A stretch of DNA of 64,000 bases from Brachycybe producta (taxonomy: Eukaryota > Arthropoda > Diplopoda > Playtdesmida > Andrognathidae), in NCBI GenBank assembly GCA_036925085.1, contig JAUPFP010000032.1, forward strand, positions 62,001-126,000. The letters run 5' to 3'. Position numbers and translations under genes: made by a program. Below are positions 21,186 through 57,360 of this stretch, piece after piece; the first letter of the stretch is position 1; each line of letters opens with the position of its first letter. The notes beneath the pieces were generated by a model, which saw only the letters and a list, made by a program, of their open reading frames with translations, was not told where the DNA came from and ran no database searches.

Positions 21186-21189
21186 GAAT
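21186..21189 (+). repeat. Left target-site duplication GAAT
   Basis: GAAT lies immediately before the TG of the 5' LTR, and GAAT follows the CA of the 3' LTR at 28362-28365. Removing the element and one copy restores the normal satellite phase. A 5-bp AGAAT reading is also possible because the LTR ends in A. Confidence 0.75.
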
Positions 21190-21592
21190 TGAAACGATAC
21201 GTCCAGGAGCGATCCTGGCTCGTTTAGTTATTTTTGGATCGTTTGTTTATTTTTAGAGTGGCCTGGAACTTTGTCAACCCTCTGTACTCACGTACAGAGG
21301 ATTGACCCAGTTCCATCAGCTGATGACGATGCCAATATCCTGTCTTGGGTCTTGGGTCCCTTTTTCCTCCCAGTCCCACCCCTTAATACAAAGAGATCGA
21401 CTTGATAAGCCTCAGCACCGGGTCTATGGGGTGAAAACTTTCTTTTGTAATTTTGTTTTGATTACGATGAATCACTTGTCTATATTTTAGTGACCACTGG
21501 TCAATCATGTTGATTGGCCAGTTTGGTTTTCAAGTTTGATTTTGCCCAATCAGAGAATACTGAGAAAGTGTTCTCAGTATCCTCTTTTTGGG

Positions 21593-21599
21593 TATAAAA
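21593..21599 (+). promoter_or_regulatory. LTR TATA box
   Basis: GGTATAAAAGG is a strong TATA box inside U3, with a CCAAT motif about 45 bp upstream and an inverted repeat at 21557-21580 between them. Transcription would start near 21625. The same box sits at 27877 in the 3' LTR. Confidence 0.75.
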
Positions 21600-21691
21600 G
21601 GCCGTGTATTTTTGTGTAAATTAAGCAGTCTTGAAAGCATTCTTTGGACACAGACATTATGCCCAAATTTGCCTAGAGATGATGAGATGTA

Positions 21692-21697
21692 AATAAA
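21692..21697 (+). terminator. LTR polyadenylation signal AATAAA
   Basis: AATAAA about 95 bp after the TATA box, with T-rich sequence downstream, gives the usual short R region. The working copy would be the 3' LTR equivalent at about 27976. Confidence 0.6.
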
Positions 21698-22077
21698 CTG
21701 GAAATTATAGTTAAAAAGTTGTTGAAGTTATTTTTATCTTTTAAAAACAAAACGAAGGACTTCAACATTTTGTCATCTAGCACTGTCAACCCAGGTGTAA
21801 ACCTGGCTCTCCAGTACTAGATGAGACTTCTGAAGACAGCACGATCAACCAGCTTTTTACGGGCGAAAGCCCGGGGAGTAGCAGACAACAAAAGATCCTT
21901 AAAACTGTAAAGGTTCTTGAAAGAGGAACTTGTGAGGAAACGTATGGGACTAATTTGTTCCCTTCCTCCCGAACCATAATAGAATTAGTGGCCTAGCCAC
22001 CCACTTTCCGATCGCCCGAAAGAGCGCTACGATACTTTTTGATAATTCTATTAGGCCCCTGAATGTGGTTCGTTACA

Positions 22078-22101
22078 AATTTGGTGGAGGAGCTGGGCGG
22101 T
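22078..22101 (+). other. Candidate primer-binding site
   Basis: Four bases after the LTR, TGGTGGAGGAGCTGGGC begins with the TGG expected to pair with a tRNA CCA end. I could not name the tRNA. The LTR fragment at 52670-53618 has TGGTGGAGG at the same place (53465), then diverges, which supports a real functional site. Confidence 0.5.
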
Positions 22102-22179
22102 TGAATACCTTGTTACTCCATAAGCTACAAAGATCGTGTTGAAAAGCACCGCGGCATAGAGAAAACATCGACGTCAGAA

Positions 22180-23601
22180 ATGACCAGTCTACAGAAACTA
22201 CTCAAGGACTTGAGGGATCTCGAGAGACTGAGGGAGGAAAGACGTCGAAAGAAGAAGACTGCCGCGTTGAAGAAGATCGTGAAGAGGCAACGTACTCAAC
22301 TGGAGGAGGCCAAGGACGAAGCTAATGTACTTCCACCGACTCCTGTTGCTGTCAAGCCTGAGGTACAGTCCAACGATGGAAGCAAGACGCCAGAACACGC
22401 CGCCATTGCCGACATCATTGGGAAACTGTCTAAAGAGAAACAGGATGAGTTGGTTCGTCAGATTATGGGCGATGAACGGAGCAGAGCGGGCTCAATCAAC
22501 ACTGAATTGGAATCGATTGAACCCTTGCGAAAGCTCGGTCCGGATGAAACTACCAAATGGACACCGGACCTGGGACCTACGCCATACTCTGAGAGAAATT
22601 CGTTACATCCTCTGCAGGGATTTTCGAAGTACGACGGTGATGACAACATCCTCCTCTACATAGAAGAATTTGAAGACATCGCTACGGCGCACGACTGGAA
22701 CTCCCTGCAGAGATGCAGGCACTTTGCAGGGCTCTTGAGGAAGCGTGCAATCAAATGGCTCGCACACTTCCGCTCTGCTTATGAGGGACAAGAAATTACG
22801 TGGACGGCCATGAAGGAGGGAATCATTGCTGAATTCCTCCTGCCTGACCAGAAGGTCCGCATGAGTCGAGAATTGGTGGAAAGGCGTCAGCAAGACCATG
22901 AAACTTTCAGAGTCTATGCTGAAAAATACGCCGAGATGTATCGAAGAATTCATCCACACGACGATGAATCGTTGCTGATAGCTACGCTCCGAAAGAGTCT
23001 GCTACCAGCACTAAGAAAACATTTGTATGGAGCACCAAAAGATCATTACCATGAGTTTGTGCGCTTCAGTACTCAAACTGAAGGGGAACTGGTGGATGAG
23101 AGAGAGTTGGTTTACAAAACATCGGCTGGGACTACAACCAAAGCGGGCGTAAGCCAGCCGAATCAAGGAAGTCAACCAAAACAGCAGAGTCAACCTAGAA
23201 CTTCAAGCGGACAAGACAAGATGTCGAACCCGCCTGAAAAGGCTGACCAGGAATCGAAACAGACAAATGAGCATCAAAACAAGCAGAGGGCTCCTTGGCG
23301 AAATCAATACCAAGGGCCGCTCACCTGTTACCGATGTGGGGAGGCGGGCCACATTGCACGTGCTTGCCCGAATCCCGGAAAACCAAGGACTGAACAAAGG
23401 AACGTTCCAACGGCAACATCGACCACTGTAAGCAGGATCGACGAACCGTTGGCAACGACGGCAACGAAGTTCTCAAATACTGTTGAGGTTTTTGAAACTC
23501 ACGTCCTGCCGAATGGTATGAGAATGGTGCCTGTCGATATCAATGGAGTGACACACTATTTTCATGAGGAAAATCTAACAGAAGAGGCTTTAAACTGCTA
23601 A
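22180..23601 (+). CDS. gag: Gag polyprotein of the LTR retrotransposon
   Basis: A 473-residue structural protein expected to form the virus-like particle and bind the element's RNA. The start ATG has A at -3. Residues ~1-50 are highly charged and likely coiled-coil (many L, R, K, E). Residues ~150-310 fit a retrotransposon Gag capsid-like region (helical, with FEDIA, AIKWLAHF, FLLPDQK and an acidic/helical tail). Residues ~325-375 are a Q/S/K-rich linker. A single CCHC zinc knuckle, CYRCGEAGHIARAC, lies at ~383-396. The frame is fully open. It ends in TAA six nucleotides after a TTTAAAC slippery heptamer in the correct phase, so a fraction of ribosomes should continue into the downstream ORF. 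Function is inferred from the domain pattern. Confidence 0.9.
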   Translation: MTSLQKLLKDLRDLERLREERRRKKKTAALKKIVKRQRTQLEEAKDEANVLPPTPVAVKPEVQSNDGSKTPEHAAIADIIGKLSKEKQDELVRQIMGDERSRAGSINTELESIEPLRKLGPDETTKWTPDLGPTPYSERNSLHPLQGFSKYDGDDNILLYIEEFEDIATAHDWNSLQRCRHFAGLLRKRAIKWLAHFRSAYEGQEITWTAMKEGIIAEFLLPDQKVRMSRELVERRQQDHETFRVYAEKYAEMYRRIHPHDDESLLIATLRKSLLPALRKHLYGAPKDHYHEFVRFSTQTEGELVDERELVYKTSAGTTTKAGVSQPNQGSQPKQQSQPRTSSGQDKMSNPPEKADQESKQTNEHQNKQRAPWRNQYQGPLTCYRCGEAGHIARACPNPGKPRTEQRNVPTATSTTVSRIDEPLATTATKFSNTVEVFETHVLPNGMRMVPVDINGVTHYFHEENLTEEALNC

Positions 23602-23633
23602 GGGCGCCACTCAGCCCCAAAGTAGTGACGCCC
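23589..23633 (+). promoter_or_regulatory. -1 programmed ribosomal frameshift signal
   Basis: TTTAAAC at 23589-23595 is read by Gag as T TTA AAC, the canonical X XXY YYZ phase. The Gag stop TAA is at 23599-23601. After a 6-nt spacer a stem forms: GGGCG (23602-23606) with CGCCC (23629-23633), then after one C-A mismatch CACT (23608-23611) with AGTG (24 to 27 of the same line, 23624-23627), closing a 12-nt loop. The -1 frame is open through the signal and joins the long second ORF. No in-frame ATG is needed for that ORF. A pseudoknot partner was not resolved. Confidence 0.8.
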
Positions 23634-26600
23634 GAAGTAGTTGTGAATAAGGAAGAAGAAAACGATGTCATTTTGGAGAGACTTCAAGAGGTTCAGGCTG
23701 CTGATCAACAAGAGGAAATTTCTGAGCAACCAAGGGTTATGTGCATCAAGGTCCGACAGGGAGGAAACAAGGCGGAGTCCAAAGGTCTGTGTCAATGGAA
23801 ACGACAGCTAGAGACGTCCGAAAAATCCACAGCCCTGTGCCAAGATGATCGACATACGGCGGAAGCAACGATACAAAGGAGTTGGGGCACAGCAGAACAA
23901 GAAGAATCAACAAGGCTGACATCTGGGAGAGTTGCAGTTGGAATCCGAAGTCAAACCATCCAAGGGGAAGGTCAACTAAAGAAACCACTGCAAAGTGGGA
24001 AAGCCAAGATGGATTTCGAGGTTAAACCCATGGTGAAGAAAATGCAGGTTGAAGCGAAATTTGGAGTAACTTCACCTGAAAAGGGTAACTTTGTGAGTGA
24101 AGGGTTTCAGACTATTTCTGGGAAAGGTCAGCAAACAGTGCCACTGCAAAATGAGTTTACTATGACATCCAAAACGGATATCGTACCAAAACTCGGTGAT
24201 GATCAGGTGATGGCGAAATTTGGAGTACCCATCCCTGTGGAAAATGATCAGGTGATGGCGAAATTTGGAGTACCCATCCCTGTGGAAAAAGATCAGGTGA
24301 TGGCGAAATTTGGAGTACCCATCCCTGTGGAACATGATCAGGTGATGGCGAAATTTGGAGTACCCATCCCTGTGGAGCAGGTGGCGGTGAAATCTGGAGT
24401 AACCACCCCTGTGAAAATTGGAAATGAGATGACGGTGAAATTTGGAGTAACCGCCATTGAGAAAAAAGAGTTTCAAGAAGAAACTGTGGATCTTCGAAGG
24501 AGAGGACTAATCTCAGTCAGGATTGACCGAAATAATCCTCATGAAGATAAGAGTAAAGAAGGCCTAGCTGAAATCACTGTCGACAAACAATCCAGTGAAA
24601 TTTCGGAAGAAACTTCAGTGAAAAAGGAAAGAGAGGAAACACATGGGATGGCCAAAAATGTCTCTAAGAAAGAGACATCTACAGCTTCCCGTGTGCAGAC
24701 ACGTGTAGGACCTGGAATAGATGATAGAAAGCATCATTCAGGAGTGAGGAAAAAGAAATCCAGCGCTAAAACCATCTTAAAAGATGAATTAACGTCTGAA
24801 TTGGATGTAGAAACGGCAAAAATTCAAATTTGCCGCTATACGGAGTGCCGCCTAGTGAGGAAAAAAGAGGAGAGAGAATTTTCTAAGAAGAAAAGCTCCT
24901 CCCACTTCCGGCCGGAAATTGAAAGTGAGAACCCCACAGGATCACGTGAGAAGACGACCGCCATTTTTGATGCCACTTCGAATCTTCATTCTGCAAAGAA
25001 TAGTCGCGGTTTGAATTTTGTCAAAGAAAAAAAAGTGTCAGCGTTTAATTTGGATAAATTTGAAAAGAGGATGGCTGAATCTAATGGCAGTGGAAAATCT
25101 GGAAGTGAGGAGATGTTTGAAGTGGAGCAGTTTTTGGAAGCCGGTGAAATGACACCGGAGTGGTTGAGGCTGCTTTTTGGAGAAGAGGATGACGACAACG
25201 CCATCGCTGCAGGGGTTTCCTCCGGCAGCAATGCCGCGCCGTCGATGCCTTCTACGGAAAAAGCCTCAGGATCTGCTCAAACGAAAAAACGGAAACAACC
25301 CGAGGGTGAGCCAACTAATTTCGTTCCTCTTGTTCATTCTCCTCCGGAGCGACGCCGAAATGTCAATCCGGAGCCAGATACTGTATATGATGGGCCAGCA
25401 AGGGATCCTAAGTTGCAGTTCCCAAGACCCCCTGAGGAGATGGATACTCCTCCAGGTAGCCTCTTGGATGGATGTTTGCCTGCAGAAATGGGAGGATCCA
25501 GAAGAAGCGGCCGAACGAAAGGAGAGAAAAATGCAGATAAACTGGCCATGAAAGAATGGATCGATGGCCAGAATCGGGAATTGGCAGCTCGAGGACGATC
25601 TCCGATAAGAGTTCCGGAGGTGGGAGAGGCTTTGCCGAAAAAGAAATCGTCAAGGGAGGTCTCTCCGTCCAACAGCTGGGTCACCGTGGACCAGCCAATC
25701 GTCCGTGGGTATGTTCACCGGCCTAATAAACCTCTTAACTTACCCACAGCAATGGAGAAGGTCTCCATTTCATCAAAAGTCGTGGCGCCTACGAGAGACA
25801 CTCGCCCGCCTGCGGCGAGCAATCCCGCTAGGGCCCAGCGAGATAAATTCGTCAGTGAGAGGCCTACGGATCCCAGACGCCAGCCAGATGTCGTCAGGAG
25901 CCGACCTCATGAGGAAACAAGAAGGGAAACAAGATACGAACAGCCAAGGATCGAGACATCCAGAAGCCATTCAGGTCGTCATCCTCACATCCCGGGACAA
26001 CCCCGGAAAGGACAAGGTGCCACAGAGAGGAGGAGGCAGCGACGAGATGCGATCTTCGAGGGAGAACGTGGTCATCCCAGCAAAGCAACGTCTGGACCAG
26101 CCACGGGAGCGATCCCGAAGGTCTCACCACCGCCACCCCCGCAACAATGGCCGAAAGGAACACTGGACATGTCCGATGGGAAGTTGTCCAACCGGCAACA
26201 GTTTCGGCTGTTGCGTAACGGTTTGGTATCTTTTAGTCGTCGTTGGGGCAGAAATTCATTCCGATATTTAGGTTTCTTCCATAGCAACGATGGGATCAAG
26301 GAAGACAGAATCCGTCCGCGATTGGACAGGCCATGGACAGCGGTGATCATCCAGGTGTTGGATCACTGGCCCGTCGTTGTACTTCACAACAACGCCGAAC
26401 CAGGGACCCTTCAGCTAGTATATCCACAACCATGGGATAAATCAACGTGCGGCATTCTGGAGGTGGTTATCTCGTCGATGGTGGCCACCTTGATTCCGAG
26501 CAGCAGAGGACATAGGAACGTCGTCCACAACCGATTGACCGAGCAGGATGGAAACGCTCACCTGGCTACACAGCAGCTTGACTTTATGGAGTCCATCGTT

Positions 26601-26723
26601 TTGGGAGCAATCCCACGGTCTCAAGTCGTCCCGCTGCGTATGCTGGAAGACCTGAACATCTTGACAACGGAGGCAGAACCAGGAGCCAGGGACCAACAGG
26701 GCCATCTGGAACCGGATCATTAG
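23595..26723 (+). CDS. ORF X, unknown protein in the pol position
   Basis: About 1042 codons in the -1 frame after the slippery site, giving a predicted Gag-X fusion of ~1514 residues. The annotated open frame could also start at a GTG (23625), but frameshifting is the better explanation. I do not recognise the protein. Counting from 23625: residues ~1-130 are E/Q-rich; ~145-285 hold seven imperfect repeats built on KFGV, four of them near-identical 15-mers; ~290-480 are K/E/S-rich; an ATG in good context at 25071 (residue ~483) opens an acidic segment with EEDDDN; ~560-840 are P/R/S-rich and probably disordered; ~845-1032 are more compact, with hydrophobic runs such as AVIIQVLDHWPVVVL. No RT, RNase H, integrase or protease motifs are seen. 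It could be a chaperone, assembly or accessory protein, or a captured gene. The protein is basic overall, so nucleic-acid binding is possible. Confidence 0.75.
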   Translation: MLRAPLSPKVVTPEVVVNKEEENDVILERLQEVQAADQQEEISEQPRVMCIKVRQGGNKAESKGLCQWKRQLETSEKSTALCQDDRHTAEATIQRSWGTAEQEESTRLTSGRVAVGIRSQTIQGEGQLKKPLQSGKAKMDFEVKPMVKKMQVEAKFGVTSPEKGNFVSEGFQTISGKGQQTVPLQNEFTMTSKTDIVPKLGDDQVMAKFGVPIPVENDQVMAKFGVPIPVEKDQVMAKFGVPIPVEHDQVMAKFGVPIPVEQVAVKSGVTTPVKIGNEMTVKFGVTAIEKKEFQEETVDLRRRGLISVRIDRNNPHEDKSKEGLAEITVDKQSSEISEETSVKKEREETHGMAKNVSKKETSTASRVQTRVGPGIDDRKHHSGVRKKKSSAKTILKDELTSELDVETAKIQICRYTECRLVRKKEEREFSKKKSSSHFRPEIESENPTGSREKTTAIFDATSNLHSAKNSRGLNFVKEKKVSAFNLDKFEKRMAESNGSGKSGSEEMFEVEQFLEAGEMTPEWLRLLFGEEDDDNAIAAGVSSGSNAAPSMPSTEKASGSAQTKKRKQPEGEPTNFVPLVHSPPERRRNVNPEPDTVYDGPARDPKLQFPRPPEEMDTPPGSLLDGCLPAEMGGSRRSGRTKGEKNADKLAMKEWIDGQNRELAARGRSPIRVPEVGEALPKKKSSREVSPSNSWVTVDQPIVRGYVHRPNKPLNLPTAMEKVSISSKVVAPTRDTRPPAASNPARAQRDKFVSERPTDPRRQPDVVRSRPHEETRRETRYEQPRIETSRSHSGRHPHIPGQPRKGQGATERRRQRRDAIFEGERGHPSKATSGPATGAIPKVSPPPPPQQWPKGTLDMSDGKLSNRQQFRLLRNGLVSFSRRWGRNSFRYLGFFHSNDGIKEDRIRPRLDRPWTAVIIQVLDHWPVVVLHNNAEPGTLQLVYPQPWDKSTCGILEVVISSMVATLIPSSRGHRNVVHNRLTEQDGNAHLATQQLDFMESIVLGAIPRSQVVPLRMLEDLNILTTEAEPGARDQQGHLEPDH
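24201..24380 (+). repeat. 45-bp coding minisatellite in ORF X
   Basis: Four tandem 45-bp copies encode a 15-residue repeat beginning DQVMAKFGVPIPVE. Related but diverged KFGV units lie before (~24056) and after (~24381 and ~24428). The unit is a multiple of three, so copy-number change keeps the frame. The four central copies are almost identical, pointing to recent slippage. Confidence 0.95.
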
Positions 26724-26841
26724 AAACGACCAGGAACGACAACGGATTGACGTGGACCAGTTCCGACCCACGCCGAAGAAACCGGAGGAACGGGATGCAG
26801 CGAGGAAGCGTATCATTTCATTTATTGATAAATATTTTTAA
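26665..26841 (+). other. Possible shifted C-terminal extension of ORF X
   Basis: In the Gag frame, an open stretch of about 58 codons overlaps the end of ORF X and runs to TAA at 26839-26841. Its composition (many R, Q, D, E, then IISFIDKYF before the stop) looks more protein-like than the last residues of ORF X itself. Either ORF X suffered a one-base indel near 26680 and originally ended here, or this is chance. An autonomous or sibling copy would decide. Confidence 0.35.
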
Positions 26842-27466
26842 TTTTCGTTTTCTTGAGGGTTAAAAAGGGTTTTTAACTTGGGTATTTTAGTCAAAATTGT
26901 GGTCAAAAAAGGGTTAATTTAATGAACAAAATTATTTCTCTTTTAAGCGTTTTTTTTTATTATTTAGTCAGATCTGCCTTAAAGATTAAAGAGGGGGGTT
27001 TTTCTTTTAAAATTGTTGTCTCTGTGGGCAGAGATGTGATAGCTAGGTCAAGCTTGGGAAAGGGGGGGTTGTGATTCCTTTTTAAATGTTTATTTTAAAG
27101 AAATTTTTATTTAACTCCTTGTTTTTATTTTGGGGAAGTTTTCGTTATTTTATGAAGAGTACTGAGATTAATTACAAATTTTGGGTGGAATATTCTAGTC
27201 GAATAAATTAAAATAGTAATTGAGTAAAACGGAAATTTGAGGGTTGGGGGTTTGTCATCCTGTTGTGATCAAATCGAATAATGAAAACCTGTGATTTTTA
27301 TTGTGATATATTATTTTCAAATTCGAAAATTTTTTATCGTTTTTTTTGTATGCAAATTGTGATACAGTATTTTGTTTTTGGGTTTTGTAGACAACCTTTT
27401 TGCGGTGGCTTATCAAGGTCCCCTAAGTTATTTGACGTAAGTTCAGGGTGAACTTCCATCTTAGTT
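26842..27466 (+). other. Non-coding 3' region of the retrotransposon
   Basis: About 625 bp of T-rich sequence with no reading frame. It includes a second purine run, GGGAAAGGGGGGG at 27056-27068, that could act as an internal polypurine tract. Confidence 0.7.
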
Positions 27467-27473
27467 GGGGGGG
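27467..27473 (+). other. Polypurine tract (G7) before 3' LTR
   Basis: Seven G residues directly abut the TG of the 3' LTR, the position required for plus-strand priming. The tract is short and preceded by TTAGTT. Confidence 0.7.
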
Positions 27474-28361
27474 TGAAACGATACGTCCAGGAGCGATCCT
27501 GGCTCGTTTAGTTATTTTTGGATCGTTTGTTTATTTTTAGAGTGGCCTGGAACTTTGTCAACCCTCTGTACTCACGTACAGAGGATTGACCCAGTTCCAT
27601 CAGCTGATGACGATGCCAATATCCTGTCTTGGGTCTTGGGTCCCTTTTTCCTCCCAGTCCCACCCCTTAATACAAAGAGATCGACTTGATAAGCCTCAGC
27701 ACCGGGTCTATGGGGTGAAAACTTTCTTTTGTAATTTTGTTTTGATTACGATGAATCACTTGTCTATATTTTAGTGACCACTGGTCAATCATGTTGATTG
27801 GCCAGTTTGGTTTTCAAGTTTGATTTTGCCCAATCAGAGAATACTGAGAAAGTGTTCTCAGTATCCTCTTTTTGGGTATAAAAGGCCGTGTATTTTTGTG
27901 TAAATTAAGCAGTCTTGAAAGCATTCTTTGGACACAGACATTATGCCCAAATTTGCCTAGAGATGATGAGATGTAAATAAACTGGAAATTATAGTTAAAA
28001 AGTTGTTGAAGTTATTTTTATCTTTTAAAAACAAAACGAAGGACTTCAACATTTTGTCATCTAGCACTGTCAACCCAGGTGTAAACCTGGCTCTCCAGTA
28101 CTAGATGAGACTTCTGAAGACAGCACGATCAACCAGCTTTTTACGGGCGAAAGCCCGGGGAGTAGCAGACAACAAAAGATCCTTAAAACTGTAAAGGTTC
28201 TTGAAAGAGGAACTTGTGAGGAAACGTATGGGACTAATTTGTTCCCTTCCTCCCGAACCATAATAGAATTAGTGGCCTAGCCACCCACTTTCCGATCGCC
28301 CGAAAGAGCGCTACGATACTTTTTGATAATTCTATTAGGCCCCTGAATGTGGTTCGTTACA
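27474..28361 (+). repeat. 3' LTR (888 bp)
   Basis: Same length as the 5' LTR and offset by exactly 6284 bp throughout; TATA at 27877 and AATAAA at about 27976 match. The two embedded short ORFs are identical in both LTRs. It is followed by GAAT and then satellite. Confidence 0.95.
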
Positions 28362-31300
28362 GAATGATTAAAGAATGATTAAAGAATGATTACAAAATGA
28401 TTAAAAATAATTAAAACAGGATTAAAGAATGTTAAAAAAATGATTAAAAAATGATTAAAGAATTATTAAAGAATGATTAAAGAATGATTAAAGAATAATT
28501 AAAAAATGATTAAAGAATGATTAAAGAATGATTAAAGAATAATTAAAAAATGATTAAAGAATGATTAAAGAATGATTAAAAAATGATTAAAAAATGATTA
28601 AAAAAAAATTAAAAAATGATTAAAGAATGATTAAAGAATGATTCAAGATTGATTAAAAAATGATTAAAGAATGTTAAAAAAATGATTAAAAATTGATTAA
28701 AGAAAGATTAAAAAATGATTCAAAATTAATTCAAAAATGATTAAAACATGATTAAAAAATGATTAAAGAATGATTAAAGAATGATTAAAGAATGATTAAA
28801 GAATGATTAAAAAATGATTACAAAATGATTAAAAATAATTAAAAAATGATTAAAGAATGTTAAAAAAATGATTAAAAATTGAATAAAGAAAGATTAAAAA
28901 ATGATTCAAAATTGATTCAAAAATGATTAAAACATGATTAAAAAATGATTAAAGAATTATTAAAGAATGATTAAAAAATGATTAAAGAATAAGTAAAAAA
29001 TAATTAAAAAATGATTAAATAAAAAAATAAATAAAAAATGATTAAAGGTTGATTAAAGAATGATTAAAAAATGATTAAAGAATAAGTAAAAAATAATTAA
29101 AAAATGATTAAAAAATAAATAAAAAATGATTAAAGGTTGATTAAAGAATGATTAAAAAATGATTAAAGAATAATTAAAGTACGATTAAAAAATGATTCAA
29201 AAATGATTCAAAAATGATTAAAAAATGATTGAACAATGATTAAATAATAATTAAAGAATGATTAAAAAATAATTAAAGAATAATTAAAAAATGATTAAAA
29301 AATAATTAAAGAATGATTAAAGAAAGATTAAAAAATGATTAAAAAATGATTAAAGAAAGATTAAAAAATGAATAAAAATGATTAAAAAATAATTAAAAAA
29401 TGATTAAAAAATAATTAAAAAAGAAAGATTAAAAAATGATTAAAAAAGATTAAAGAATGATTAAAGAATGATTAAAAAATAAATAAAAAATAATTAAAAA
29501 ATGATTAAAAAATAAATAAAAAATGATTAAAGAATAATTAAAGTACGATTAAAAAATGATTCAAAAATGATTCAAAAATGATTAAAAAATGATTGAACAA
29601 ATAAATAATATAAATAAATAATAATTAATTAAAGAATGATTAAAGAATGATTAAAAATAATTAAAAAATGATTAAAGAATGTTAAAAAAATGATTAAAAA
29701 TTGATTAAAGAAAGATTAAAAAATGATTAAAAATTGATTCAAAAATGATTAAAACATGATTAAAAAATGATTAAAGAATGATTAAAGAATGATTAAAAAT
29801 GATTAAAGAATGATTAAAGAATGATTAAAGAATGATTACAAAATGATTAAAAATAATTAAAAAATGATTAAAGAATGATTAAAGAATGATTAAAGATTGA
29901 TTAAAGAATAATTAAAGAATGATTAAAGAATGATTACAGAATGATTAAAAATAATTAAAAAATGATAAAAGAATGATAAAAGAATGATAAAAGAATGATT
30001 AAAGAATAATTAAAAAATGATTAAAAAAAGATTAAAAAATAATTAAAGAATGATTAAAGAATAATTAAAAAATGATTATAGAATGATTAAAAAATGATTA
30101 AAAAATGATTGAAGAATGATTAAAGAATAATTAAAAAATGATTCAAAAAATTATTCAAAAATGATTCAAAAATTATTAAAAAATGATTAAAGAATGATTA
30201 AAAAATGATTAAAGAATGATTAAAGAATGATTAAAGAATGAATAAAGAACGATTAAAGAATGATTAAAAATAATTAAAAAATGATTAAAGAATGTTAAAA
30301 AAATGATCAAAAAATGATTAAAAAATGATTAAAAATGATTAAAGAATGATTAAAGAATGATTAAATAATGATTAAAAAATAATTAAAGAATGATTACAGA
30401 ATGATTAAAGAATGATTAAAGAATGATTAAAAAATGATTAAAGAATAATTAAAGTACAATTAAAAAATGATTCAAAATTGATTCAAAAATGATTAAAAAT
30501 GATTGAAGAATGATTAAAGAATAATTAAAGAATGATTAAAAAATAATTAAAGAATGATTACAGAATGATTAAAGAATGATTAAAAAATGATTAAAGAATG
30601 ATTAAAAAATGATTAAAGAATAAGTAAAAAATAATTAAAAAATAATTAAAAAATAAATAAAAAATGATTAAAGGTTGATTAAAGAATAATTAAAAAATGA
30701 TTAAAGAATAATTAAAGTACGATTAAAAAATGATTCAAATATGATTCAAAAATGATTAAAAAATGATTGAACAATGATTAAATAATAATTAAAGAATAAT
30801 TAAAAAATAATTAAAGAATGATTAAAAAATGATTAAAAAATAATTAAAGAATGATTAAAAAAAGATTAAAAAATGATTAAAAAATGATTAAAGAAAGATT
30901 AAAGAATGATTAAAGAATGATTAAAGAATGATTAAAGAATGATTAAAGAATGATTAAAGAATGATTAAAGAATGATTAAAGAATGATTACAGAATGATTA
31001 AAAAATGATTATAGAATGATTAAAAAATGATTAAAAAATGATTGAAGAATGATTAAAGAATAATTAAAAAATGATTCAAAAAATTATTCAAAAATGATTC
31101 AAAAATTATTAAAAAATGATTAAAGAATGATTAAAGAATGATTAAAGAATGATTAAAGAATGAATAAAGAACAATTAAAGAATGATTAAAAAATGATTAA
31201 AGAATGATTAAAAAATGATTAAAGAATAAGTAAAAAATAATTAAAAAATGATTAAATAAAAAAATAAATAAAAAAGGATTAAAGGTTGATTAAAGAATGA

Positions 31301-40300: not shown

Positions 40301-41441
40301 AGAATGATTAAAGAATGATTAAAAAATGATTAAAAAATGATTAAAACATGATTAAAAATTGATTAAAGAATGATTAAAGAATGATTAAAAATGATTAAAG
40401 AATGATTAAAGAATGATTCAAGAATGATTAAAGAATGATTAAAGAATAATTAAAAAATGATTAAAAAAAGATTAAAAAATGATTAAAGAATGATTAAAGA
40501 ATGATTAAAGATTGATTAAAGAATGATTACAAAATGATTAAAAATAATTAAAAAATGATTAAAGAATGTTAAAAAAATGATTAAAAAATGATTAAAGAGT
40601 GATTAAAGAATGATTAAAGAATAATTAAAACATGATTAAAGAATGATTAAAGAATGATTAAAGAATGATTAAAGAATGATTAAAAAATGATTAAAAAATG
40701 ATTAAAACATGATTAAAAATTGATTAAAGAATGATTATAGAATGATTAAAAATGATTAAAGAATGATTAAAGAATGATTAAAGAATGATTAAAGAATGAT
40801 TACAAAATGATTAAAAATAATTAAAAAATGATTAAAGAATGTAAAAAAAATGATTAAAAATTGATTAAAAAATGATTCAAAATTGATTCAAAAATGATTA
40901 AAACATGATTAAAAAATGATTAAAGAATGATTAAAGAATGATTAAAGAATGATTAAAAATGATTAAAGAATGACTAAAGAATGATTAAAGAATGATTAAA
41001 GAATGATTAAAGAATGATTACAAAATGATTAAAAATAATTAAAAAATGATTAAAGAATGTTAAAAAAATGATTAAAAAATGATTAAAAAATGATTAAAAA
41101 ATGATTAAAGAATGATTAAAGAATGATTAAAGAATGATTAAAGAATGATTAAAGAATGATTAAAGAATGATTAAAGAATGATTAAAGAATGATTAAAGAA
41201 TGATTAAAGAATAATTAAAAAATGATTATAGAATGATTAAAGAATGATTAAAGAATGATTAAAGAATGATTAAAGAATGATTAAAGAATGATTAAAGAAT
41301 GATTAAAGAATGATTAAAAATGATTAAAGAATGATTAAAGAATGATTAAAGAATGATTAAAGAATGATTAAAGAATGATTAAAGAATGATTACAAAATGA
41401 TTAAAAATAATTAAAAAATGATTAAAGAATGTTTAAAAAAT
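28362..41441. repeat. A+T-rich 11-bp satellite array, right part
   Basis: Continuation of the same 11-bp satellite after the insertion. Variants AATGATAAAAG, GATTACAAAATG, AAACATGATT and AAAGAGTGATT mark subdomains. The last ~5 kb is the most homogeneous, with long runs of pure AATGATTAAAG. The array ends abruptly at AAAAAATGA, next to the 183-bp satellite. Confidence 0.97.
28620..35150. repeat. Tandem duplication of ~3.27 kb inside satellite
   Basis: Rare variants recur at an exact 3269-bp offset: CAAAATTAATTC at 28721 and 31990, the unusual GAACAAATAAATAATATAAAT at 29595 and 32864, and ATTCAAGATT at 28641 and 31910. The two copies read almost identically until about 35150. Confidence 0.85.
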
Positions 41442-44400
41442 GAGCAAGCATAGACACTTCAATGTCGCCCACTTCGAACTGGTGTAACTTTTGAAGCGTG
41501 CAGTGCACACTGGATTGAAGACATTTATTAATTCCAGGCTTTTCTGGGAATGCATCGAATAGAAATATTTCCGTTCCCGCTCTTCTGGTTCACTTGCAAT
41601 GAATTTTCGAAATTACAAATCCATGATCAAGCATAGACACTTCAATGACGCCCACTTCGTACTGGTGTAACTTTTGAAGCATGCAGTGCACACTGGATTC
41701 GAAGACATTTATTAATTCCAGGCTTTTCTGTGAATGCATCGAATAGAAATATTTCCGTTCCCGCTCTTCTGGTTCACTTGCAATGAATTTTCGAAATTAC
41801 AAATCCATGAGCAAGCATAGACACTTCAATGACGCCCACTTCGAACTAGTTTAAATTTTGAAGCGTGCAGTGCACACTGGATTCGAAGACATCCCTGCAT
41901 TCCAGGCTTTTTGGGGAATGCATCAAATCTAATATATCCGTTCCCGCTCTTCTGGTTCACTTGCAATGAATTTTCGAAATTACAAATCCATGAGCAAGCT
42001 TAGACACTTCAATGACGCCCACTTCGAACTGATGTAACCTTTGAAGCATGCAGTGCACACTGGATTCGAAGACATCCCTGCATTCGAGGCTTTTTGGGGA
42101 ATGCATCGAATCCAATATTTCCGTTCCCGCTTTTCTGGTTCACTTGCAATGAGTTTTCGAAATTACACATCCATGAGCAAGCATAGACACTTCAAGGACG
42201 CCCACTTCGAACTGGCGTAACTTTGAAGCGTACAGTGCACACTGGATTCGAGGACATTCCTGCATTCCAGGCTTTTTGGGGAATGCATCGAATCTAATAT
42301 TTCCGTTCCCGCTCTTCTGGTTCACTTGCAATGAATTTTCGAAATTACAAATCCATGAGCAAGCTTAGACACTTCAATGACGCCCACTTCGAACTGGTGT
42401 AACCTTTGAAGCATGCAGTGCACACTGGATTCGAAAACATTCCTGCATTCCAGCCTTTTCTGGGAATGCATCAAATCTAATATTTCCGTTCCCGCTCTTC
42501 TGGTTCACTTGCAATGAATTTTCGAAATTACAAATCCATGAGCAAGCTTAGACACTTCAATGACGCCCACTTCGAACTGGTGTAACCTTTGAAGCGTGCA
42601 GTGCACACTGGATTCGAAGACATCCCTGCATTCCAGGCTTTTTTGGGAATGCATCAAATCTAAAATTTCCGTTCCCGCTCTTCTGGTTCACTTGCAATGA
42701 ATTTTCGAAATTACAAATCCATGAGCAAGCATAGACACTTCAATGTCGCCCACTTCGAACTGGTATAACTTTTGAAGTGTGCAGTGCACACTGGATTCGA
42801 AGACATCCCTGCATTCCAGGCTTTTTGGGGAATGCATCAAATCTAACATTTCCGTTCCCGCTCTTCTGGTTCACTTGCAATGAATTTTCGAAATTACAAA
42901 TCCATGAGCAAGCTTAGACACTTCAATGACGCCCACTTCGAACTGGTGTAACTTTTGAAGCATACAGTGCACACTGGATTCGAAGACATTCCTGCATTCC
43001 AGCCTTTTCTGGGAATGCATCGAATCCAATATTTCTGTTCCCGCTCTTCTAGTTCACTTGCAATGAATTTTCGAAATTACACATCCATGAGCAAACATAG
43101 ACACTTCAATGTCGCCCACTTCGAACTGGTGTAACTTTTGAAGCGTGCAGTGCACACTGGATTCGAAGACATCCCTGCATTCCAGGCTTTTTTAGGAATG
43201 CATCAAATCAAGTTTTTCCGTTCTCGCGTCTCTGGTTCACTTGCAATGAATTTTCGAAATTACAAATCCATGAACAAGCATAGACACTTCAATTACACCC
43301 ACTTCGAATTGGTGTAACTTTTGAAGCGTACAGTGCACACTGGACTCGAAGACATTCCTGCATTCCAGGCTTTATGGGGAATGCATCGAATACATTATTT
43401 CCGTTCCCGCGTCTCTGGTTCACTTGCAATGAATTTTCGAAATTACAAATCCATGAACAAGCATAGACACTTCAATGAAACCCACTTCGAATTGGTGTAA
43501 CTTTTGAAGCGTACAGTGCACACTGGATTCGAAGACATTCCTGCATTCCAGCCTTTTCTGAGAATGCATCGAATCCAATATTTCCATTTCCGCTCTTCTG
43601 GTTCACTTGCAATGAATTTTCGAAATTACAAATCCATGAGCAAGCTTAGACAATTCAATGACGCCCACTTCGAACTGGTGTAACCTTTGAAGCATGCAGT
43701 GCACACTGGATTCGAAGAAATCCCTGCATTCCAGGCTTTTTTAGGATTGCATCAAATCCAGTTTTTCTGTTCCTGCGTTTCTGGTTCACTTGCAATGAAT
43801 TTTCGAAATTACAAATCCATGAGCAAGCTTAGACACTTCAATGACGCCCACTTCGAACTGGTGTAACCTTTGAAGCATGCAGTGCACACTGGATTCGAAA
43901 ACATTCCTGCATTCCAGCCTTTTCTGGGAATGCATCGAATCTAATATTTCCGTTCCCGCTCTTCTGGTTCACTTGCAATGAATTTTCGAAATTACAAATC
44001 CATGAGCAAGCTTAGACACTTCAATGACGCCCACTTCGAACTGGTGTAACCTTTGAAGCGTGCAGTGCACACTGGATTCGAAGACATCCCTGCATTCCAG
44101 GCTTTTTTGGGAATGCATCAAATCTAAAATTTCCGTTCCCGCTCTTCTGGTTCACTTGCAATGAATTTTCGAAATTACAAATCCATGAGCAAGCTTAGAC
44201 ACTTCAATGACGCCCACTTCGAACTGGTGTAACTTTTGAAGCATACAGTGCACACTGGATTCGAAGACATTCCTGCATTCCAGCCTTTTCTGGGAATGCA
44301 TCGAATCCAATATTTCTGTTCCCGCTCTTCTAGTTCACTTGCAATGAATTTTCGAAATTACACATCCATGAGCAAACATAGACACTTCAATGTCGCCCAC

Positions 44401-47400
44401 TTCGAACTGGTGTAACTTTTGAAGCGTGCAGTGCACACTGGATTCGAAGACATCCCTGCATTCCAGGCTTTTTTAGGAATGCATCAAATCAAGTTTTTCC
44501 GTTCTCGCGTCTCTGGTTCACTTGCAATGAATTTTCGAAATTACAAATCCATGAACAAGCATAGACACTTCAATTACACCCACTTCGAATTGGTGTAACT
44601 TTTGAAGCGTACAGTGCACACTGGACTCGAAGACATTCCTGCATTCCAGGCTTTATGGGGAATGCATCGAATACATTATTTCCGTTCCCGCGTCTCTGGT
44701 TCACTTGCAATGAATTTTCGAAATTACAAATCCATGAGCAAGCATAGACACTTCAATGACGCCCACTTCGAACTAGTTTAAATTTTGAAGCGTGCAGTGC
44801 ACACTGGATTCGAAGACATCCCTGCATTCCAGGCTTTTTGGGGAATGCATCAAATCTAATATATCCGTTCCCGCTCTTCTGGTTCACTTGCAATGAATTT
44901 TCGAAATTACAAATCCATGAGCAAGCTTAGACACTTCAATGACGCCCACTTCGAACTGGTGTAACCTTTGAAGCATGCAGTGCACACTGGATTCGAAGAC
45001 ATCCCTGCATTCGAGGCTTTTTTAGGATTGCATCAAATCCAGTTTTTCTGTTCCTGCGTTTCTGGTTCACTTGCAATGAATTTTCGAAATTACAAATCTA
45101 TGAGCAAACATAGACACTTCAAGGACGCGCATTTCGAACTGGTGTAACTTTTGAAGCGTGCAGTGCACACTGGATTCGAAGACATCCCTGCATTCCAGGC
45201 TTTTTTAGGAATGCATCGATTCCAATATTTCCGTTCCCGCTTTCTGGTTCACTTGCAATGAATTTTCAAAATGACAAATCCATGAACAAGCATAGACACT
45301 TCAATGACGCCCACTTCGAATTGGTAACTTTTGAAGCGTACAGAGCACACTGGATTCGAAGACATTCCTGCATTCCAGGCTTTTCTGGGATTGCATCGAA
45401 TCCAATATTTCCGTTCGCGCTCTTCTGATTCACTTGCAATTAATTTTCGAAATTACAAATTCATGAGCAAGCATAGACACTTCAATTACACCCACTTCGA
45501 ATTGGTGTAACTTTTGAAGCGTACAGTGCACACTGGACTCGAAGACATTCCTGCATTCCAGGCTTTATGGGGAATGCATCGAATACATTATTTCCGTTCC
45601 CGCTTTTCTGGTTCACTTGCAATGAATTTTCGAAATAACAAATCCATGAGCAAGCATAGACACTTCAATGACGCCCACTTCGAACTGGTGTAACTTTTGA
45701 AGCGTACAGTGCACACTGCATTCGAAGACATTCCTGCATTCCAGCCTTTTCTGAGAATGCATCGAATCAAATATTTCCATTTCCGCTCTACTGGTTCACT
45801 TGCAATGAATTTTCGAAATTACAAATCCATGAACAAGCATAGACACTTCAATGAAACCCACTTCGAATTGGTGTAACTTTTGAAGCGTACAGTGCACACT
45901 GGATTCGAAGACATCCCTGCATTCCAGGCTTTTTGGGGAATGCATCGAATCTAATATTTCCATTCCCGCTTTTCTGGTTCACTTGCAATGAATTTTCGAA
46001 ATTACAAATCCATGAGCAAGCTTAGACAATTCAATGACGCCCACTTCGAACTGGTGTAACCTTTGAAGCATGCAGAGCACACTGGATTCGAAGACATCCC
46101 TGCATTCCAGGCTTTTTTAGGAATGCATTAAATCCAGTTTTTCCTTTCCCGCGTCTCTGGTTCACTTGCAATGAATTTTCGAAATTACAAATCCATGAAC
46201 AAGCATAGACACTTCAATGACACCCACTTCGAATTGGTGTAACTTTTGAACCGTACAGTGCACACTGGATTCGAAGACATTCCTGCATTCCAGCCTTTTC
46301 TGAGAATGCATCGAAATCCAATATTTCCATTTCCGCTCTTCTGGTTCACTTGCAATGAATTTTCGAAATTACAAATCCATGAGCAAGCTTAGACAATTCA
46401 ATGACGCCCACTTCGAACTGGTGTAACCTTTGAAGCATGCAGTGCACACTGGATTCGAAGACATCCCTGCATTCCAGGCTTTTTTAGGAATGCATTAAAT
46501 CCAGTTTTTCCGTTCCCGCGTCTCTGGTTCACTTGAAATGAATTTTCGAAATTACACATCCATGAGCAAGCATAGACACTTCAATGTCGCCCACTTCGAA
46601 CTGGTGTAACTTTTGAAGCGTGCAGTGCACACTGGATTCGAAGATACCCCTGCATTCTAGGCTTTTTTAGGAATGCATCGAATCCAATATTTCCGTTCCC
46701 GCTTTTCTGGTTCATTTGCAATGAATTTTCGAAATTACACATCCATGAGCAAACATAGACACTTCAATGTCGCCCACTTCGAACTGGTGTAACTTTTGAG
46801 GCGTGCAGAGCACACTGGATTCGAAGAAATCCCTGCATTCCAGGCTTTTTTAGGATTGCATCAAATCCAGTTTTTCTGTTCCTGCGTTTCTGGTTCACTT
46901 GCAATGAATTTTCGAAATTACAAATCCATGAACAAGCATAGACACTTCAATGACGCCCACTTCGAATTGGTGTAACTTTTGAAGCGTGCAGTGCACACTG
47001 GATTCGAAGACATCCCTGCATTCCAGGCTTTTTTAGGAATGCATCGATTCCAATATTTCCGTTTCCGCTTTCTGGTTCACTTGCAATGAATTTTCGAAAT
47101 TACAAATCTATGAGCAAACATAGACACTTCAAGGACGCGCATTTCGAACTGGTGTAACTTTTGAAGCGTGCAGTGCACACTGGATTCGAAGACATCCCTG
47201 CATTCCAGGCTTTTTTAGGAATGCATCGATTCCAATATTTCCGTTCCCGCTTTCTGGTTCACTTGCAATGAATTTTCGAAATTACAAATCTATGAGCAAA
47301 CATATACACTTCAAGGACGCCTACTTCGAACTGATGTAACTTTGAAGCGTACAGTGCACACTGGATTCGAAGACATTCCTGCATTCTAGGCATGATGTAT

Positions 47401-47785
47401 TCTGGGAATGCATCAAATCCAATATTTCCGTTCCCGCTCTTTTGGTTCACTTGCAATGAATTTTCAAAATGACAAATCCATGAACAAGCATAGACACTTC
47501 AATGACGCCCACTTCGAACTGGTGTAACTTTTGAAGCATGCAGTGCACACTGGATTCGAAGACATCCCTGCATTCCAGGCTTTTTGGGAAATGCATCAAA
47601 TCCAATATTTCCGTTCCCGCTCTTCTGGTTCACTTGCAATGAATTTTCGAAATTACAAATCTATGAGCAAACATAGACACTTCAAGGACGCCTACTTCGA
47701 ACTGATGTAACTTTGAAGCGTACAGTGCACACTGGATTAGAAGACATCCCTGCATTCCAGGATTTCTGAAAATGCATCGAATCCA
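41442..47785. repeat. ~183-bp satellite array, ~35 monomers
   Basis: Anchor TAGACACTTC recurs at 41451, 41634, 41818, 42001, 42184, 42366 and 42549, about every 183 bp, to the end of the array. Monomers contain a conserved core (CACTTGCAATGAATTTTCGAAATTACAAATCCATGA... in part) and GTGCAGTGCACACTGG. The first two monomers carry a variant (ATTTATTAATTCC) not seen inside, as expected at an array edge. Open frames of 60-65 codons on the minus strand are by-products: the unit is 61 codons long. A block of several monomers recurs at +1281 bp (seven units) and +1464 bp (eight units), so there is higher-order structure. Confidence 0.96.
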
Positions 47786-48095
47786 ATAGACAAAAAGGCT
47801 CTACCATGTGCTAGGGCATGGCAGTGAAGTAGCAGCACTTAAATAAACTAAGTCCTAAATAAATGTTGTATTGACCGATACAGCATAATGCGGTCTTTGG
47901 GTCTTTGATAACCACATGCTACTCATGGCATCATGCTATTGCACGACTGTGATGTAGCAGGACTAAAATAAACTAAGTCCTAAATAAATGTTGTACTGAC
48001 AGATAAAACATAATGCGGTCTATGGGTCTTCGATAACTGCATGCTACTCATGGCATCGTGCTATTGCACGACCATGTAGTAGCAAGAAAAAAGTT
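47786..48095. repeat. ~125-bp tandem repeat, ~2.5 copies
   Basis: AAATAAACTAAGTCCTAAAT occurs at 47841 and 47966, and GCATGCTACTCATGGCATC-like text follows each, with a partial third copy ending near 48090. It forms the border between the 183-bp satellite and unique sequence. No coding potential is seen. Confidence 0.85.
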
Positions 48096-54504: not shown

Positions 54505-57360
54505 CTAATAAGTAATAACATTAGGAAGAAAAGACCAAAAATATGCATCAGTCCTAGCCATTAATTCTTTGAAAGTTTTTGAATGCGCAAATCTACCTTT
54601 ACGAGGATTTCTAGTTAGTAAACCATTAAGCAGGGTAATGTTATCACAAGACAGCAAATGTCCCAGAAGAGCGAGGCTTTGCTCATTTCTTCGGCCTGCT
54701 AATGATTCCCATTCTAGTTTTTGGAGCATAGATGATACGCTGTCAGTATACGCATACTGTCCCTTTACAAATTTTGCAGCCCTATGCTGCACCATTTCTA
54801 TTTCTTGTTTTAGATTATTTCTAAATGGGTTCCAAATTGGGGAACAATATTCTAAGATAGGTCTAACTAGGGTAAAGTAACAGGCCTTCTTTACATTTTC
54901 TTTACAATGTTTAAGGGTGCGTTGGACAAACCGCAGCCTTTGATTAGCTTTGGCAACTGCTTTGGTTATATGATCTTTCCAAAGCATGTCCTTGGACAAG
55001 GTTAAGCCAAGATATTTGACGGTATCAACATGGGTTAGCTGAACATCTCCCATTGTGTAATCTGCCATGAACGATTCTCGCTTTCGGGAAACTCGCATAA
55101 CATTGCATTTACCCCTATTCAGTTGTAAATGCCACTCAGAGCACCACTCTTCAACACTGTCTAGATCTCTTTGGAGGACTTCACTATCCTCATTATCCCT
55201 AATCCTCCTGTAAACAACAGCATCATCTGCAAACAAACATATCGTACTGTTGCATCTGTCTGCCAGATCGTTTATGAACAGAAGGAAAAGCAGTGGTCCA
55301 AGAATGCTACCCTGAGGTACACCAGATGTTACTTTAGCCCAGTCTGACACAGCACCATCAATTTGGACTCGCTGTTGTCTATTTGATAAGAATGATGATG
55401 TCCATCAAATTACTTGTTTATTTAAGTTAAAAGTCATCATTCTTTTAATTAGTAGTGAATGCTTCACTGTATCAAATGCTTTTGCAAAATCTAAAAATAC
55501 CAAGTCAAATTCGCCTTTATTATCTAAGCCAGATTGTATGTCTTGGATGAATAGTGCTAGCTGGGTATCACATGATCTGCCTTTTCGAAAACCATGCTGG
55601 TTTTCATGAATTAATTTATGGTTTTTTAAATGCTTGATTGTATTAGAATAAATTATATGCTCGAGAGTTTTACAAACAATGGAGGTCAGAGAAATGGGTC
55701 TATAGTTCTTTGGACAATTTTTATCTCCTGTTTTAAGAATTGGGCAGATATTTGCTTGCCTCCATGCCATAGGCAGTATACCACTATCAAGAAAATCTTG
55801 GAAAAGTTTACTTAAAAAAGGGCTAACTTCTGTGGCCAGCTCCTTTAGCAATTTTGGCGAGATTTCATCTGGACCAGCTGATTTATTAACATCTAGATTA
55901 CAAAGTAAATTTTGTAATCCAGTGGAGTTTATGATTATATCAGGCATGACATGAGATAAGGTGCCAAGTTGTGGTTCCTCATTGCCATCATTAGCATGAA
56001 AGACACTTTGGAAATAATCATTAAGTGTGCTTGCAATAACCTGTTTGTCAGTACAGACATCACCAAGTGGTGTTATAATTGAAGTTTTATTATTTTGAAT
56101 TTTGGTGAGATTTTTTACATATTTCCAGAACAACTTGGGATTTTTATGGAGTGATGCCCCTAAGACATTATTAGTAAAGTTTAAGTGTTCTTTTTTAAGC
56201 AACCTTTTCACAAGACATCACTGGGAATTAAACTGCAATTTAACAGTATCATTCATTTTAATCTTCATTTTAGATCTAAATTTGCGTTGTTTACGAAGAG
56301 CGCGGCGTATCTCAGTGGTGTACCAAATTGGTTCCAAGCTTGATTTTACATTTTTGAATGGGATGAATTTATTTATGCCATTAGAAATGACACTGACAAA
56401 CAATGACCACTGTTGGTTTACATCTTTTGATAGTCCACTTTTATTTTTATTTTTCAGTCCATTTGTTACAAAGAGCTTAAAATTAGCCCAATCAGCTTTA
56501 TTGTACTGTAGGACTTTTCGGGGAGCTAATTGGAGTTTTTCTAATTGGGTGGCAAATTCTAAGTAAATCATTTTGTGATCGCTTATGCCATCAGCAATTT
56601 CAATTGATTTGGCATTTTCTGGGGTGTTCGTAAAAACTAAAACTAGAATATTAGCTGTTGTATTGGTGCAGCATGTAGGGGTTTGCACAAGTTGATCCAG
56701 AGAATATGTGCATACACTATTAAGCAGTATATCTGTTAATTTATTACTAGAGCACTGAGAGTCAACAGTATAATTTTTCCAATTTATTTCTGGAAGGTTA
56801 AAATCCACACCAATGAGAACTGATGCATGTTTGTTGGTAGAAAATAAGGAATCTAAACATTTTCTAAATTGGAGTAATTCCTCCTCGTCACTTGAAGGTG
56901 GGCGACAGAATGAAAATAGAAAATTTTTTCTCCCATTATGAAGTGAAATGCTACAACACACTGCCTCACAATCACCTTCATAAGCAGGTTTTTTTTATGT
57001 AAGGTTTTTATTGATAGCAAGAAATACACCTCCACCTTTGATTAAGTTCCGATCTTTTCGGAATATGTTAAATTGTTGGGGGGAAACCTCCGTGGATGAA
57101 ACATCTTCAGTTAGCCATGATTCACTACCAAAGATAATGTCAGGATTATAGCTTTCTATAGCTTCTCTAAATTGAATTACTTTATTTTTTATACTTCTGC
57201 AATTGATTATTAACATTTTTAAAGATTTATTTATAAGCTTGTTTTCCTTTTTGGTCAGAGGAACTGTCTTAGAAGAAATTTTTTTGTTAGAAAGTTGGGT
57301 TTCTTTTTGAATAACTATTTTAGGTACAGTAACTAGATTTGATTTCTTCCTAGAATCAGA
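54505..57360 (-). pseudogene. CR1-like LINE ORF2 (endonuclease-reverse transcriptase)
   Basis: A single reading frame of about 950 codons with only three internal stops: TAA at 56995-56997, TGA at 56218-56220 and TGA at 55405-55407. No frameshift is needed. The first ~100 residues of the endonuclease show INCRSIKNK, DIIFGSESWL and RKDRN...GGGVFLA. VDFNLPEINW and the SDH box come after the first stop. RT block A reads FLDFAKAFDTV (near 55450) and block C FADDAVVY (near 55230), preceded by SGVPQGSILGP; YRPISLTS and QHGFRKGRSC lie between. It ends NVITY then stop at 54505. Both TGA codons could come from CGA by deamination. The product would nick target DNA and prime reverse transcription, but this copy is dead. 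Confidence 0.85.

Follow-up and report, generated by a model that had tools for sequence, protein, structure and literature searches.

A gypsy-type LTR retroelement of Brachycybe producta that lacks enzyme genes encodes Gag and, behind a putative -1 frameshift signal, a protein resembling the tail of a Pol

Results

An LTR element without enzyme genes

The window (the whole 64,000-nucleotide stretch of Brachycybe producta DNA that was analysed) contains a complete LTR element, whose features are collected in Table 1. With its paired LTRs, putative primer-binding site (PBS), polypurine tract, and short target duplications, it is an LTR retroelement with a gypsy-type Gag. Gag matches the Pfam families Retrotrans_gag (E 6.6e-7) and zf-CCHC, the CCHC knuckle (E 6.7e-7), both above their cut-offs; a match to Ty3_capsid falls under its cut-off. 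A reverse transcriptase or integrase of the gypsy branch (order RT-RH-IN) was absent from the element in a Pfam profile search, and its putative placement in Ty3/gypsy draws on Gag and on a relative, family D, described below. The GAAT target duplication is weak evidence when taken by itself because the flanking satellite is rich in GAAT. That satellite, an 11-bp AT-rich repeat with the consensus TAAAAAATGAT, spans 10-41443 (~41 kb) and encloses the element. Elsewhere in the window, a 183-bp satellite occupies 41440-47788 (~35 copies, 90%), and broken LINE frames with reverse transcriptase lie on the minus strand at 54505-56961, with an RVT_1 match at C32:116997-117728 (window ~54997-55728). 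We take these frames to resemble the CR1/jockey elements of animals.

Table 1. Features of the LTR element, in window coordinates
Feature	Position	Strand	Description
Complete LTR element	21190-28361	+	Paired LTRs, with gag and X inside
Target duplication GAAT, left copy	21186-21189	.	Directly before 21190
5' LTR	21190-22077	+	888 bp, TG...CA, exact repeat of 27474-28361
Putative PBS TGGTGGAGGAGCTGGG	22082-22097	+	Basis: position 3' of the 5' LTR
gag	22180-23601	+	473 aa, capsid-like domain and CCHC knuckle
Slippery heptamer TTTAAAC	23589-23595	+	In phase; kept at 43 of 43 distinct loci
X	23592-26723	+	-1 frame, 1043 codons long; related to the C-terminal Pol tail of family D
Spacer TGCTAA	23596-23601	+	6 nt, gag stop TAA at its end
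Stem-loop	23602-23633	+	Arms 23602-23611 and 23624-23633
45-nt tandem repeat, in frame	24199-24376	+	4 units in the window copy; within the half of X that evolves fast
Conserved middle part of X	25368-25818	+	60-63% identity to the D Pol tail
Conserved C-terminal domain of X	26175-26654	+	45-47% identity to the D Pol end
Putative polypurine tract GTTGGGGGGG	27464-27473	+	Directly before the 3' LTR; inferred
3' LTR	27474-28361	+	888 bp, identical to the 5' LTR
Target duplication GAAT, right copy	28362-28365	.	Directly after 28361

The initial annotation had described an LTR element devoid of enzyme genes, with a TTTAAAC in -1 phase, a 6-nt spacer, and a 9-pair stem around the gag stop, and a long -1 frame free of enzyme motifs. 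All of this stands, and the LTRs are identical. No enzyme domain was found in X, the product of the -1 frame, in Pfam, PHROGs, NCBIfam, or PDB sequences. The sole Pfam row for X was Gal_mutarotas_3 (E 0.0043, under its cut-off), and the best weak database rows were GPKOW_C (E 0.042) and nucleoside diphosphate kinase (E 0.17). The C-terminus of X gave a weak GPKOW_C match in five of 11 aligned members, with the E value just given as the best, which is probably a chance match. A search of viral contigs found no relatives of either the middle or the C-terminus of X.

A conserved junction between gag and X

TTTAAAC is read T-TTA-AAC in the gag frame and is the sole in-phase X XXY YYZ heptamer of gag; a second heptamer, GGGAAAC, lies out of phase at 22420. 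The stem arms form nine pairs with one mismatch, as read by eye, and the fold of 23596-23646 has an energy of -17.5 kcal/mol (z -2.48), matched by 3 of 200 shuffles. The -1 frame then stays open for its full length to a stop at 26721-26723, for which the chance is ~4e-25 at this base composition.

The junction is kept among copies. TTTAAAC is present at each of the 43 distinct loci that cover the site, a count that includes two loci sharing one flank (L027 and L028), and it occurs there in eight sequence variants. When subfamilies A and B, described below, are aligned, a 57-column window from 23580 holds 2 differences, where the mean is 16.9. A gag stretch at ~22527-22566 is even more alike between A and B, and the junction block is therefore unusual but not unique. 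Stem changes in several variants preserve pairing as G-U, and one stem pair is broken in each of L047 and L051 (both read by eye). With an in-phase heptamer, a short spacer, a stable stem, and conservation among copies, the junction has the makings of a programmed -1 frameshift signal, as predicted from its sequence.

Could X be made by another route? A GTG at 23625 and an early in-frame ATG in X would allow reinitiation or internal initiation, and X might also come from a spliced RNA, in which case the heptamer would be a relic; slippage, too, is a prediction. We consider these routes distinctly unlikely, given that the only in-phase heptamer of gag is present at every locus covered, that the window around it has so few differences (even with one gag stretch more alike), and that several stem variants still pair, though L047 and L051 do not pair fully.

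Two subfamilies that have moved recently

The genome searched comprises 295 Mb in 442 contigs. Scoring of 90 of 2549 candidates gave at least 93 gag matches; second pieces of one place, 3 of 93 gag rows and 4 of 82 X rows, were dropped before counts were made. Subfamily A, to which the window copy belongs, accounts for at least 41 gag rows at 94-100% identity, and subfamily B for at least 29 rows at 85-87% identity over at least 460 residues. The remaining gag matches are decayed. At 43 of 78 places, X has a stop-free frame of at least 940 aa, and a match to its conserved half lies downstream of gag at 65 of 90 gag places.

The paired LTRs of five B copies (L039, L040, L041, L043, and L046) are identical, with 0 mismatches over 890-893 bp, and those of a sixth, L045, show 8 mismatches in 858. 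Together with the identical pair in the window's A copy, these pairs show that both subfamilies moved recently. The B copies L039, L041, and L046 are bounded by 4-bp CTAT target duplications, and matching flanks were found for L009/L065 (ATAT), L014/L066 (ATAT), and L029/L068 (ATTG). The element has no enzymes, yet it has transposed recently, as does the non-autonomous partner of a pair. The initial annotation had proposed a family of parasitic elements, and a multicopy, recently active lineage of two subfamilies without enzymes is what we found.

Target preference is strong: ATAT directly precedes 22 of 30 A loci (L009-L038), with the window copy, at GAAT, as an exception. The flank common to L027 and L028 probably reflects one insertion that was duplicated together with its surroundings. 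A 30-mer over the LTR end and PBS had 115 genome matches at up to three mismatches, against 0 for a reversed control. Three main forms of the PBS occur, at 11, 9, and 9 of 30 A loci (one further locus differs) and at 7, 1, and 1 of nine B loci. The presence of all three forms within both subfamilies suggests that several tRNAs serve as primers.

Selection on Gag and X

We calculated dN/dS by NG86, using L039 and L046 for comparisons between A and B. The ratios for gag were 0.13 and 0.15, and that for X was 0.20 with either copy; against L051, X gave 0.24 (A), 0.19 (L039), and 0.20 (L046). Along X, the A-L039 ratio was 0.44-0.51 over codons 1-450, 0.31 over 451-600, 0.06 over 601-750, and 0.13 over 751-900. 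For codons 901-1043 dN was 0.046 and dS was saturated, as it was in one or two windows of two further comparisons, and ratios there are therefore rough. In X, differences at codon positions 1/2/3 numbered 81/44/234 for the C-terminal half (483 codons) and 136/148/198 for the N-terminal half (473 codons); gag had 41/30/128 in 467 codons. Overall dS between A and B was ~0.5-0.56 for gag and ~1.2 for X. The 45-nt repeat varies in number by whole units, and open X frames accordingly range from 1021 to 1096 aa in 15-aa steps. These codon comparisons indicate purifying selection on both Gag and X, with the ratio of X lowest in its C-terminal half.

This pattern bears on whether these are ordinary, decaying deletion derivatives in which X is functionless and its open frame reflects recent ancestry. 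Decayed copies do exist, and A derivatives without most of X have multiplied (see below). Against this, the differences between A and B in X pile up at third positions, the overall ratio is low, and more than half of the X places are still open, and we regard this explanation as very improbable. The kept heptamer, the mostly kept stem, and the low dN/dS of X agree with what the initial annotation had expected of sibling copies.

X resembles the C-terminal tail of a Pol

Long gag and X queries gave only A and B copies because few candidates were scored; shorter queries reached a more distant family, D. With 133 residues at the end of Gag as the query, D appeared as 23 rows at 47-53% identity among the matches listed. 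An integrase zinc-binding domain (PF17921) lies 3.1-3.4 kb downstream on the same strand in 21 of these 23 D-type gag matches, and in 17 of the 21 it is in the -1 frame of the D Gag. This pairing took in 23 of 150 Gag-end rows and 103 of 150 integrase rows.

Two separate parts of X also match D. Queries of 150 residues from the X middle (E ~1e-41) and of 160 residues from the X end (E ~1e-33) gave the identities listed in Table 1. In 26 of 30 D-type rows, an integrase match lies ~2.2-2.6 kb upstream of the X-end match. The X-end match is in frame with the upstream integrase in 22 of the 30, and in 20 the two matches lie in open frames of equal length, mostly 2205-2207 aa; the X-middle match is also present in 21 of the 30. 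Here the pairing took in 30 of 150 X-end rows, 29 integrase rows, and 21 X-middle rows. Gag, integrase, and X-end matches occur together at six D loci. At one of these, on contig C3, gag lies at 4344561, the integrase at 4348193, the X middle at 4350257, and the X end at 4350983, with a pol frame of 2207 aa. A reverse transcriptase search listed no D locus among the best 150 of 4496 candidates, which were filled by other families, and our use of the term autonomous for D is provisional, based on Gag, integrase, and frame length.

Since two separate parts of X match the D Pol tail in the same order, enzymes have apparently been lost and the tail kept: X looks like a Pol tail, and the window element like the remainder after enzyme loss. 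The initial annotation had read the junction as a signal that was kept while its cargo was replaced. Its first half agrees with the invariant slippery site; its second half does not, as X is a homologue of the D Pol tail. The lack of a database match for X had left room for an unrelated foreign protein in place of pol. We now give almost no credence to this idea: homology of the middle and the C-terminus to D rules out foreign cargo for the conserved half, and only the fast N-terminal half could have such an origin.

Alternatively, X might have started as a separate accessory or envelope-like third gene, with one fusion to Pol in D and another to Gag in A and B. Third genes of gypsy-like elements sit after integrase, as the D tail does, and the unequal divergence of gag and X between A and B would fit exchange of modules. 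However, the tail and the integrase of D share one open frame in 20 of 30 rows, and the tail of A and B follows Gag in the same -1 frame as the D Pol. A single loss of the middle accounts for both arrangements, and we find an independent third gene unlikely.

Copies that have lost most of X and the question of a helper

Two deletion classes within subfamily A lack the conserved half of X. One, joining 25113 to 26673, keeps the frame and was seen in two of the copies read (L070 and L074); the other, joining 25075 to 26638, breaks the frame and was seen in three (L071-L073). Each junction thus occurs in more than one copy. These classes have themselves multiplied, and X is therefore not strictly required in cis. 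The claim of selection on X made in the initial annotation is supported by the A-B ratio, but the multiplication of the two classes speaks against its strongest form. X-deleted copies could live on X from full-length sisters. L070-L074, deletion copies with a 3' LTR, are parasites of the parasite.

A pol gene between the same LTRs, a finding that the initial annotation had set against its own reading, was sought in the 14 A copies for which the X C-terminus had no match. Six of the 14 were read in part; all six are shortened and none has pol. One of the 14, C1:18351430, has an X-middle match next to it.

We considered 18 PBS matches without nearby gag or X as helper candidates; six of the 18 were read, and all six start with the same gag family. 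A search for a different LTR end carrying the A/B PBS gave 0 matches with one pattern and, with a second, 25 matches against 30 in the reversed control, which is background. The PBS core with a different preceding base occurs at C3:6447836, C3:8033045, C12:1716447, C17:3331446, C20:1049078, and C86:240365; none of the six adjoins a listed D gag, as judged by eye. It is possible that these places are other elements using the same primer. Family D may be a helper with a different PBS or merely the nearest surviving relative.

Discussion

We think it likely that the window element belongs to a non-autonomous (semi-autonomous) Ty3/gypsy-like lineage in which the enzyme-coding middle of pol was lost but Gag, the Pol tail, and the frameshift junction between them were retained. 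The ancestor would have encoded Gag and then, via a -1 frameshift, a Pol made up of protease, reverse transcriptase, RNase H, integrase, and a long C-terminal tail. Loss of the middle would have left the retained signal joining Gag to the tail. The majority of ribosomes would then make Gag, and a minority would slip at TTTAAAC to make Gag-X. The low, fixed Gag:Gag-X ratio put forward in the initial annotation is likewise a prediction. Gag-X would enter particles with Gag and helper Gag-Pol, probably in place of Gag-Pol. The element has no enzymes, and copying of its RNA therefore needs a helper in trans, whose enzymes would copy and integrate it. Several observations count against this explanation: the two deletion classes have multiplied, no helper emerged from the PBS searches, with D only about half identical in Gag, and half of X (codons 1-450) evolves fast.

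What does the tail do? It appears to be more than a fossil because it was retained through enzyme loss and through the divergence of A and B. Its job would be separable from the enzymes, most likely to make particles or integration complexes of the element itself functional or to steer them, and its role would be accessory, in cis or in trans. More tentatively, with a confidence that stops a little short of even, we propose that the Pol tail is a module with a function of its own, a domain not yet described, and that joining it to Gag by frameshifting favours the element's own RNA or steers integration. Should the tail prove necessary and the enzymes dispensable, nature has dissected Pol in this element and made the function of the tail directly testable. 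One genome holds three levels of this system: enzyme-bearing D, the Gag-tail elements A and B, and shorter, tail-less A derivatives that are still spreading.

TR-GAG, LARD, TRIM, BARE-2, and RLG_Sabrina are gag-only or coding-free LTR elements that are mobilised in trans. In none of them do we know of a conserved frameshift that leads into a Pol-tail protein. A literature search, mostly at a level short of full text, found no element of Gag and a Pol tail behind a frameshift.

Judging by the portions of the sources available, the closest system is RLG_Quinta of wheat, which likewise combines Gag with an extra domain, DUF1, and has no enzymes (PMC11302176). RLG_Quinta was derived from and is moved by the autonomous RLG_Cereba, with which it has LTR termini and PBS in common; its Gag and DUF1 lie in one ORF, and DUF1 was perhaps acquired later (PMC11302176). 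The word 'frameshift' is absent from the available text on RLG_Quinta, and RLG_Sabrina is also named there (PMC11302176). In contrast, the second protein of the window element lies behind a putative -1 signal and is traced to a Pol tail, and our PBS pattern searches found no autonomous family sharing termini with A and B. Thus, as far as these portions go, Gag with an unexplained domain and no enzymes was known from RLG_Quinta and its DUF1, and here the origin of such a domain is traceable, apparently to a remnant of Pol.

Mouse IAP 1-delta-1 offers a second comparison. According to the parts of the reports available, a gag-pol deletion created a Gag-Pol fusion in this element, which needs Gag and Pol in trans and multiplies more than the full-length form, with the fusion protein helping in cis (PMC6466679, PMC7411935). 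There, part of gag and of pol is deleted to leave one fused ORF, whereas the window element has an intact Gag and a kept junction, and its lineage comprises two diverged subfamilies that are under selection. The Pol tail follows Gag in the -1 frame, and an IAP-like joining of the two in one protein would result only if slippage occurs. New features of this case are the kept -1 junction, an extra protein traced to a Pol tail, and evidence of selection on that protein.
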